DNA of 47,497 nt, taken from positions 1 through 47,497 of the IMG/VR virus record IMGVR_UViG_3300022707_001381; one strand, written 5' to 3'. The DNA comes from a virus. The notes under the pieces are model-generated. The model was not told where the DNA came from. It was given only the letters and a program-made list of their open reading frames with translations, and searched no databases. Every line of letters starts with the position of its first letter. Position 1 is the first letter of the stretch. A program made the position numbers and the translations under genes. Below are positions 22,611-24,590 of the stretch, one piece after another.

Positions 22611-23008
22611 AAATATTAAAAGACAACATGAAGCGCACATTCAAAGATATTAGTGATAAAAAAGCGCCTCAGTTTGTTAGTGCTGTTTTGTCTATTGGTG
22701 AAAATCATTCTAAGGAATTGGCACCTGTTGCTTATTCTTTTTTGATAAATAATATAATAAAAGATTTAAATGTTTCTGGCAGTAAAGTTACCGGAACTTT
22801 AACTTATGCTCAAAATTATGCCGCTGCATTGGAATTCAGAACTGATTGGAAACCTAAGCCACCACCAAAATATGGCAATAAGAAAAAAGGTATTGCACCG
22901 GCACCAGCTTGGAATCCAAACGCTACGCCTCATTATCTTAAGCGGGGTTTCGAAGATCAAGAGAGCCAAGCGCTGATTAAAAGAGTTGAGGGGATATTCA
23001 AGATATGA
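22586..23008 (+). CDS. HK97 gp10-like tail completion protein
   Basis: 140 residues from ATG at 22586 (a GTG at 22574 is possible). Pattern typical of HK97 gp10-like proteins: an N-terminal helix (KLKILKDNMKRTFKDI), SYSFLINNIIKDLN-like strand, VTGTLTYAQNYAAALEF, and the C-terminal NATPHYLKRGFEDQE, which resembles the family's P-F-L..A......E end. It joins head connector to tail. Confidence 0.7.
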   Translation: MPVNKAKLKILKDNMKRTFKDISDKKAPQFVSAVLSIGENHSKELAPVAYSFLINNIIKDLNVSGSKVTGTLTYAQNYAAALEFRTDWKPKPPPKYGNKKKGIAPAPAWNPNATPHYLKRGFEDQESQALIKRVEGIFKI

Positions 23009-23451
23009 GCACAATAGCAGATTTAGAAGTCAAACAACTTGAAGATCACTTAACTTCTGGAGGCTTCTTTGCACCTTTTACTGATATTTTAGGAAATAAT
23101 CAGCCAGCGCCAACATTCCAGTCGTTCGAATTAGATTTAACCAATGGAACGGTTGACCGTAATGAGCGAGTTATCATGATCCGAAACTCTGGAAATATAA
23201 CAGCTTCAACCCGAACATTTTTCAAAGAAAGATTTATGTTAGTTTTAGTTGTTGGCCGTGTTGGTGAAAGTGATCGCGTTATTGTCAATGGACTCGCCGA
23301 AGATATAGAAGATTATTTAGTTAAAAACTTCTCTGATGGTGCATGTATTGCCAATATTGTTAGCTCAGGTGTAAGTCCTACATTCATCACCGAAGATGGT
23401 CGCCGGGCGTTTGAAATAAATATTACTGTAATGTTTAATATTATTCGTTGA
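23005..23451 (+). CDS. Tail terminator protein
   Basis: 148 residues, ATGA overlap with gp10-like gene. Mixed alpha/beta protein with LEVKQLEDHL and central strands (FMLVLVVGRVGES), ending in a hydrophobic strand (FEINITVMFNIIR), like the small terminators that cap the tail tube. Position just before the tube protein (after the RNA block) agrees. Its stop codon overlaps the -35 of a strong promoter. Confidence 0.65.
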   Translation: MSTIADLEVKQLEDHLTSGGFFAPFTDILGNNQPAPTFQSFELDLTNGTVDRNERVIMIRNSGNITASTRTFFKERFMLVLVVGRVGESDRVIVNGLAEDIEDYLVKNFSDGACIANIVSSGVSPTFITEDGRRAFEINITVMFNIIR

Positions 23452-23476
23452 CATTGTGTTTAATGTGTTTTATATT
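23448..23476 (+). promoter_or_regulatory. Strong class 1 promoter for the non-coding RNA block
   Basis: TTGACA (23448-23453), exactly 17 bp, TATATT (23471-23476), with element TTGTGTTTAA (23454-23463) directly after the -35. The expected start is near 23483. No gene follows for over 600 bases, so it must serve the RNA described at 23483-24042. Confidence 0.75.
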
Positions 23477-23628
23477 TAAGTTGATTTTAAGTGTAACTAT
23501 ATAGTCTGTATACAAGAGTGAGTTAGTGTTTAATTCCTGCAACGCGTTAAACAGCATAATACCTACCTTGCAAGCTAGTTCACTTTTTATACAGATTATA
23601 ACGCAAGTATTTTACATTTAGATTTTAA

Positions 23629-23656
23629 TTGACGCTAGGAAAGACTAGAATATAAT
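23629..23656 (+). promoter_or_regulatory. Second promoter inside the RNA block
   Basis: TTGACG (23629-23634), 16 bp, TATAAT (23651-23656). A start near 23663 would give a shorter RNA of about 380 nt that still includes the 23692-23767 helix, the tRNA-like element and the terminator. It lacks the 10-bp element of class 1. Confidence 0.55.
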
Positions 23657-23779
23657 TAACCTCTCGTTCACACATTGAAACATCGTGTGGGATTTACTGG
23701 TAAATCGACTGAGCAGGACACTCGGGGTATTTGAAAAGCCATTGGTACTATTTTACCACCAGTAAATTATAACTATTAC

Positions 23780-23858
23780 ATCGACGTACGCAAATTGGTA
23801 ATCCGCCGACTAAGCGTTATGCCGGTATTTGCAGGTTCGAGTCCTGCCGTCGATACCA
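23780..23858 (+). tRNA. tRNA-like element with encoded CCA and an enlarged anticodon loop
   Basis: A perfect 7-bp acceptor stem (ATCGACG 23780-23786 with CGTCGAT 23848-23854), A73 and CCA (23856-23858). The T arm is canonical (GCAGG, loop TTCGAGT, CCTGC, 23831-23847). U8-A9 is present, and a weak D arm with the usual A-GG-A loop (23789-23805). The anticodon arm is abnormal: CCGAC (23806-23810) pairs with GCCGG (23821-23825) with an A-C mismatch and encloses a 10-base loop TAAGCGTTAT, so no anticodon can be assigned. It may be a tRNA mimic or a processing signal within the larger RNA. Confidence 0.6.
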
Positions 23859-24012
23859 AATTCATGAAGTATCAAGCAGTGTTAGCGATGCCCTAGTTAA
23901 CATTAAAAATCTGCCGTAAAAGCCGGTTTGAGGAGCCATTATTTTAAATAAGAATATTAGAGTTTCAATTGCTCTACAAAATGGTAGGTTTACCGATATT
24001 TTTATTATAATC

Positions 24013-24038
24013 AAAACCCTCTTAATTGAGGGTTTTTT
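24013..24038 (+). terminator. Terminator of the RNA block
   Basis: AAAACCCTC (24013-24021) pairs with GAGGGTTTT (24028-24036), loop TTAATT, T-run to 24038. It isolates the RNA block from the tail genes. Confidence 0.9.
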
Positions 24039-24055
24039 ATTACCCACAATTCCAT

Positions 24056-24063
24056 GCTACAAT
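24056..24063 (+). promoter_or_regulatory. Class 2 (late) promoter, tail genes
   Basis: TGCTACAAT (24055-24063 including the TG) shares CCATGCTAYAMTA with the prohead promoter at 11474-11485. It is directly after the terminator and 39 bases before the tail tube gene. No operator-like element. Confidence 0.65.
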
Positions 24064-24101
24064 ACTATCGAATTAATTATAAATTACTCGGAGCATAAAA
24101 C

Positions 24102-24590
24102 ATGGCGATTTGTAGCACTTCCACAAATAACCCAGGCAAAAACGTTGCTGTCGAATTCGCTATTGGTTGTGGCGATGATGATTTTTTAACTAACACTTAC
24201 AAACCACTAGGAACGATAAACGCTAAGGATTTAACTTTTGCTGCTGTTGAAACTGACAATACCAATGATCTATCTGGCTCTACATCTTCATCAATTATAG
24301 TTAGAACTAGCTTCGATTTAACGGTTGCTGGTTTTACAACTAATGTCGATTCTGCAACTTCTGCGCAAAACGAATTAGTAACTTATTACTTTGCTGAGCT
24401 CCAAGCAGGAAGACAACCAACCGTCTGGATAAAAATATCTGGCCCAAACTACCCTAGAACCTGGCATATTTTTATGAATTACAAAGGCGGCGGGGAAGGG
24501 TTTGGCACTGATGATCTGCAAAGTATCTCATTTGACTTTAGTGTTACCGATACGGGCACGGCAATTAATAACGCAGTAAACTTAAGTTAA
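24102..24590 (+). CDS. Tail tube protein
   Basis: 162 residues, soluble, beta-rich; pattern of siphovirus tube proteins (VAVEFAIGCGDDDF, LTFAAVETDNTNDLSGS, SFDLTVAGFTT, ISFDFSVTDTG). It polymerises into the tail tube around the tape measure. First gene of the tail unit; it overlaps the next start by one base (TAATG). Confidence 0.8.
   Translation: MAICSTSTNNPGKNVAVEFAIGCGDDDFLTNTYKPLGTINAKDLTFAAVETDNTNDLSGSTSSSIIVRTSFDLTVAGFTTNVDSATSAQNELVTYYFAELQAGRQPTVWIKISGPNYPRTWHIFMNYKGGGEGFGTDDLQSISFDFSVTDTGTAINNAVNLS

Follow-up and report, generated by a model that had tools for sequence, protein, structure and literature searches.

A tRNA-like domain with an encoded CCA end and an aberrant anticodon region in a tail-gene gap of a siphophage genome

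Discussion of phage tRNAs has mostly centred on help with decoding or on the replacement of host tRNAs that have been cleaved. Phage-encoded tRNAs, such as those of T5 and the tRNA-Asn of Pseudoalteromonas phage C7, share an encoded CCA, acceptor and T arms and a cargo position with the tRNA-like domain described here, that of C7 lying at the same locus, whereas our domain has no decoding arm and lies inside a longer non-coding unit with predicted structure on both sides. The mascRNA/MEN-beta tRNA-like RNA (RF01684) likewise combines an acceptor stem and T arm with reduced other arms, is an RNase P substrate and does not decode; it differs as an animal nuclear RNA without an encoded CCA, and homology is not claimed. 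By analogy, RNAs of the mascRNA type are those that our domain would most resemble in its way of working. The tRNA-like domain of tmRNA (RF00023) is also an acceptor/T half without an anticodon arm, but tmRNA has an mRNA-like tag region, and none was recognised in the stretch analysed here (positions 1 to 47,497 of IMG/VR record IMGVR_UViG_3300022707_001381, hereafter the window). Neither ARAGORN nor the Rfam tmRNA model, a tRNA-like domain joined to an mRNA-like tag, found a match in the window. GOLLD and ROOL, large structured phage RNAs, are similar in kind, and GOLLD is linked to tRNAs; neither gave an Rfam match in the window or the relatives searched. Tandem modules of Pseudoalteromonas phages, for which we coin the name GGU-helix-A-ACC, occupy the same gap before the major tail gene and have tRNA-like contents in several cases. 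Our literature search returned no paper describing a tRNA-like non-coding RNA of a phage at a tail locus.

The window is a linear virus record of 47.5 kb with a siphophage gene set comprising terminase, portal, head, neck/tail-completion, major tail protein, tape measure and tail protein genes and a recombination/replication block. The gap between the tail-completion-like and major tail protein genes measures 650 nt, is without a convincing gene and houses the tRNA-like domain, and a tRNA-model search found no second tRNA in the window. The gap borders and the parts of the domain are as follows:

23005-23451, plus strand: tail-completion-like gene (phrog_782), left gap border; 28-68% identity in six relatives
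24102-24590, plus strand: major tail protein gene (phrog_853), right gap border
23780-23858, plus strand: tRNA-like domain with encoded ACCA
23789-23805, plus strand: D-arm-like segment CGCA-AAUUGGUAA-UCCG, 3/4 pairs, GG in the loop (direct reading)
23806-23825, plus strand: anticodon-arm position CCGAC-UAAGCGUUAU-GCCGG, A-C mismatch, 10-nt loop (direct reading)
23812-23820, plus strand: AAGCGUUAU, common to the tRNA-like domain of relative L003, at equal distance to the T arm
23831-23858, plus strand: T arm, acceptor 3' strand and ACCA, undamaged

The acceptor stem (23780-23786 with 23848-23854) is Watson-Crick paired at 7/7 positions and the T stem (23831-23835 with 23843-23847) is paired at 5/5, the T loop is UUCGAGU, in keeping with the consensus, and positions 23855-23858 encode ACCA. 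A preliminary description of the letters had reported an intact acceptor stem, T arm and CCA, and on the cloverleaf layout its A-C mismatch in the anticodon arm, 10-base loop and missing base 26 were all seen again; it had overlooked that U33 is absent and that the D stem (CGCA/UCCG) contains a C-C mismatch. The 5-bp anticodon stem, 7-nt loop and U33 of a decoding tRNA are not found in the domain, while the parts expected of an RNase P substrate are all present, with 7 + 5 bp for an acceptor/T stack of about 12 bp, UUCGAGU as T loop and ACCA as 3' RCCA.

The Rfam tRNA model (RF00005) scored the domain at 32.3 bits (threshold 29, E 8.7e-5), again over the cut-off in a repeat search; a default whole-window Rfam scan did not call it. 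ARAGORN, named as a check in the preliminary description, rejected the domain, while the Rfam tRNA threshold was passed. The window contains one perfect acceptor stem and T arm with a TTCRANY loop; 100 shuffled windows gave one in all, and none with NCCA. The tRNA-like domain is not a chance product. The minimum free energy of the isolated element was -23.5 kcal/mol, against -13.8 kcal/mol for the cloverleaf, and the predicted pair probability was 0.7-1.0 for the acceptor and T stems and 0.01 or less for the cloverleaf D and anticodon stems. Since the latter are absent from the thermodynamic fold, "anticodon arm" is used here as a positional label only.

BLAST of the gap or the element against phages gave only terminator-like and generic T-arm similarity, with weak matches to several tRNA species; prophages in bacterial genomes gave a single weak partial match, in Rhizobium. 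The exact T-arm/acceptor pattern had no match in IMG/VR. The window element is without a close homologue, and selection on this copy is presumed.

The remaining features of the gap are:

23448-23476, plus strand: promoter-like TTGACA-17-TATATT where the upstream gene ends, probably driving the cargo; 11/12 consensus
23629-23656, plus strand: second promoter-like TTGACG-16-TATAAT; 11/12 sigma-70-like consensus
23669-23689, plus strand: small hairpin CACAC..GUGUG near the inferred RNA 5' end (predicted fold)
23692-23767, plus strand: stem-loop with a 10-bp helix AUUUACUGGU/ACCAGUAAAU, upstream of the tRNA-like domain (predicted fold)
23956-24001, plus strand: 3' domain common with relative L002, 87% over 46 nt
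24013-24041, plus strand: terminator-like hairpin AAAACCCTC-TTAATT-GAGGGTTTT followed by T; arms 24013-24021/24028-24036, 100% complementary

With promoter-like sequences and a terminator-like hairpin flanking the domain, the gap has the look of a transcription unit of its own, about 380-560 nt long. The tail-completion gene has the first promoter-like sequence at its stop codon, and in L002, L062, L064 and phage H103 comparable sequences were seen by eye at the same place. Shuffled sequences gave 3.3 matches per region at 9/12 or better, and both promoter-like sequences are therefore suggestive only. The hairpin at 24013-24041 also occurs in L002; a stricter tool rule for terminators did not call it. 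Within the 3' domain, GGUA-GGUU-UACC in one sequence stands against UGUA-GGUU-UACA in the other, one compensatory change in a small hairpin, and in L002 the 46-nt stretch overlaps a possible small ORF.

One strand of the upstream hairpin (23700-23726) is complementary, with interruptions, to the T arm/acceptor/CCA half at 23838-23858 (TGGTA..TCGAC..GCAGGAC). In the fold of the longer RNA, pairing of the upstream hairpin with the tRNA-like domain was 3.6-4.3 kcal/mol better than forming the domain, in a model that leaves out tRNA tertiary contacts and co-transcriptional folding; this competing predicted fold counsels caution on tRNA-like folding. A functional antisense pairing of the two was considered and found not convincing, its significance against shuffles being borderline: the duplex energy of -43.4 kcal/mol was reached by 27/1000 shuffled upstream and 61/1000 shuffled domain sequences, and the score of the local alignment by 102/1000 shuffles.

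Relatives were collected via the flanking proteins, and in them the tail-completion/major-tail gap is, to judge from its contents, a cargo site. It holds small membrane-protein ORFs in L062, a reverse-strand gene that is PAPS reductase-like by eye in L066, apparent reverse-strand genes in L004 and L005, a secreted-protein ORF with a structured stretch in L064 and L037, and small ORFs in L002. In several of L062, L064, L066, L004 and L005 a promoter-like sequence precedes the cargo and a terminator-like hairpin follows it. The nearest relatives (L002, L004, L005, L062 and L066) thus carry genes or other sequence in the gap and no tRNA-like domain. Phage C7 (L056) has a canonical tRNA-Asn(GUU) there (1619-1693, 74.9 bits), preceded at 1541-1617 by a poorer, GCCA-ended tRNA-like element, and the gap of L003 has two tRNA-like elements. 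The second of these matched RF01684 weakly (16.7 bits, E 0.62), and its T arm matches the tRNA-like part of RF00023. When the records of eleven relatives and the window were searched with the tRNA model, matches fell only at the gap locus, apart from weak sub-threshold ones. In phage XCL1123 and contig L039 the same flanks are joined without a tRNA-like insert (TTTAAACGCAA/TCACTTAACAG), and the insert therefore comes and goes as a unit.

Two further tRNA-like RNAs lie in the gap of phage H103 (L008, 2154-2220; GGCGAGG..CCTCGCC-ACCA) and of contig L046 (3009-3075; GGTGCGG..CCGCACC-ACCA). Both have a 7/7 acceptor stem, a 4-bp D arm, a T arm and ACCA, with a 4-bp arm and 3-nt loop where the anticodon arm is expected. 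Neither matches the Rfam tRNA model, and they have therefore been overlooked by standard annotation. Of 67 positions, 13 differ between the two. Eight of the differences make up compensatory double changes at four pairs, namely 3 and 5 of the acceptor stem and 10-25 and 12-23 of the D stem, and none of the 13 breaks a pair. This pattern arose in 0/20,000 trials when 13 changes were placed at random, and sliding the partner columns by 1-3 gave no double change against four in register. The covariation, which is that of two sequences and has a weak shuffle control (28/500), demonstrates at the level of sequence that an anticodon-less tRNA-like structure is under selection in H103 and L046. They share with the window the gap, an acceptor stem, T arm and ACCA, and a non-decoding middle, with the major caveat that these are structurally different RNAs whose tail protein is only about 30% identical to that of the window. 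The mini-arm pattern CACTTGYAGTG was found only in the H103 and L046 records; the window, whose middle differs, has neither this mini-arm nor sequence homology to the two.

A closer link exists with L003, whose major tail protein is 65% identical to that of the window. The nine-base run AAGCGUUAU lies exactly 13 nt before GGUUCGA both in the L003 tRNA-like domain and in the window, a register match that was spotted after the fact and occurred in 2/20,000 shuffles. There is moderate evidence that the two domains are homologous, with the loop sequence apparently kept and not the surrounding stems. A search of IMG/VR for AAGCGTTAT with a T arm returned 26 stretches, among which only L003 comes from this locus; the others read as different tRNA genes.

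The gap, its tRNA-like structure and the recurrence of tRNAs or tRNA-like RNAs at this place can be read from the letters themselves. The explanation that we favour, and hold to be somewhat probable, is a non-decoding tRNA-like domain within an independently transcribed phage non-coding RNA that is carried as cargo between tail genes. Promoter use, RNase P cleavage, a benefit to the phage and a binding partner are what we infer for it, as follows. A host-like promoter would give rise to an RNA of about 380-560 nt with its 3' end at the 24013-24041 hairpin. Of the tRNA, the stack of acceptor stem and T arm, the D/T-loop elbow nucleotides and ACCA would be kept, the anticodon region being free to change. 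Host RNase P would read the 12-bp acceptor/T stack and ACCA and cut at 23780, which would free the upstream hairpin RNA from a product beginning with, or equal to, the tRNA-like domain. A stable CCA-ended product might then mark and protect the RNA end, or occupy host factors that read the acceptor stem, T arm and CCA. RNase P is reported to bind the T-arm/acceptor stack and to measure from the elbow (PMC4919913), and Cas12a3 engages the tRNA tail, acceptor stem and T arm (PMC12851939), while PrrC is reported to read the anticodon sequence and the paired anticodon stem and to need base modifications too (PMC3014915). Because the kept parts fit RNase P and Cas12a3 and the lost parts are those of PrrC, an acceptor-side module is favoured and an anticodon-nuclease decoy disfavoured. 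A processing signal for the surrounding RNA, one of the roles offered in the preliminary description, appears plausible. Its proposal of a molecule that undergoes processing or binding as a tRNA does, yet does not decode normally, gains support from the CCA-ended, covarying, anticodon-less RNAs of H103 and L046 at the same place, although decay stands as a rival. Non-decoding tRNA-like RNAs that are kept at one locus with a covarying shape would point to another phage use of tRNA mimicry, either in RNA processing or in decoying readers of the acceptor and T arms. As H103 and C7, two named isolated phages, carry examples, the question is open to experiment.

The strongest rival is a decayed phage tRNA gene, a cargo tRNA that recently lost its D and anticodon arms and whose other half is merely undamaged as yet; we regard this as a real possibility, if a somewhat doubtful one. 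Damage is seen in the D stem, anticodon stem, loop length, U33 and base 26 alike, the absence of the element from the nearest relatives makes it dispensable, and the AAGCGUUAU match with L003 could reflect the common ancestry of a dying tRNA. The preliminary description had held that relatives with a normal anticodon arm at this place would speak for decay, and the canonical tRNA-Asn of C7 is such a case. On the other hand, the part that is damaged is the part that L003 conserves, while the stems differ, and anticodon-less tRNA-like RNAs at the locus are under selection in H103 and L046. The intact arms, from which simple decay had been argued against, do tell against it, but weakly: no lesion falls in about 32 constrained acceptor/T/CCA positions against 4-5 elsewhere, a crude count with a rough p of 0.01-0.04 that is not decisive.

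A decoy or competitor for readers of the acceptor stem, T arm and CCA, such as Cas12a3 with its cleavage of tRNA CCA tails, is distinctly unlikely as the function of the domain. Exactly those parts are retained in the window, H103 and L046, but a single RNA would have to reach a high level against the whole tRNA pool. A decoy for anticodon-loop nucleases of host defence (PrrC, PARIS AriB, retron effectors) is very improbable; this role had also been suggested from the letters and is weak here with the anticodon sequence and paired stem read by PrrC lost. L046 does have a tRNA-Lys(UUU)-like domain at the locus, and tRNA-Lys(UUU) is what PrrC cleaves; phage tRNAs rescue phages from such systems (PMC11555353); the same report found these tRNAs inactive once the anticodon or stem-loops were altered, and the anticodon sequence, modifications and paired stem that PrrC needs (PMC3014915) are absent in the window, H103 and L046. 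It is hardly credible that the domain is a decoding tRNA with an enlarged anticodon loop for frameshifting or recoding: the acceptor and T arms could perhaps be charged, but U33 is missing, the D and anticodon stems are mismatched, predicted folds contain no stable anticodon arm and ARAGORN rejected it. An attP, the attachment site of a phage, arisen as a copy of a tRNA gene of the host, is suggested by the perfect tRNA 3' half and is extremely unlikely given the location inside the structural gene cluster, the presence of a 5' half and the lack of an integrase among the proteins scanned.

The GGU-helix-A-ACC modules were defined by an inner helix and GGU/ACC closing pairs with one A on the 3' side, and 12 of them were found in the relatives, with 71/72 inner pairs formed and several pair types per position. 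The window was tried as a member of this scaffold and rejected, as 23452-24101 contains no closing motif. Modules lie at:

L042: 2317-2414 and 2486-2560
L046: 3106-3183 and 3255-3364
L054: 1501-1598
L056: 1717-1854
L058: 2151-2226 and 2294-2352
L008: 2251-2348
L003: 2010-2109
L037: 2390-2454

In the loci searched, Rfam gave no match to the module itself at E 0.1 or better, and no plasmid copies of the scaffold were found. Its inner helix covaries strongly and its contents vary, being tRNA-like in some only; sometimes two modules stand in tandem, each then followed by a terminator-like hairpin. At L054 1501-1580 (phage PS_L5, upstream of the terminase) and L057 1501-1578 (PHS21), the module is 83-85% identical to those of L008 and L042. 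Such identity in apparently unrelated Pseudoalteromonas phages, at differing genomic places, suggests horizontal exchange of non-coding RNA, and the swappable modules at the locus, GGU-helix-A-ACC included, may constitute a new RNA family. A bolder reading, which we think unlikely and put forward tentatively, is that these marine siphophages have in their tail-gene gap a dedicated site for a new modular kind of non-coding RNA. Its modules would pass from phage to phage and mimic tRNAs, to counter tRNA-directed defence or tRNA-handling enzymes of the host, and the window would carry one such mimic. The modules, on that equally tentative reading, would be either CCA-ended without an anticodon or set in a GGU-helix-A-ACC scaffold by which the CCA position is hidden.

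Two of the modules with tRNA-like contents are these. In L046, 3106-3183 is a tRNA-Lys(UUU)-like domain in the GGU..A-ACC scaffold, with the 3' end ACAACC and no CCA; tRNA-Lys(UUU) is a target of PrrC and PARIS. In C7, 1717-1854, after the tRNA-Asn, is a tRNA-like element that has acceptor, D and T arms; its acceptor and T arm are separated by about 98 nt, which mostly replace the anticodon arm.
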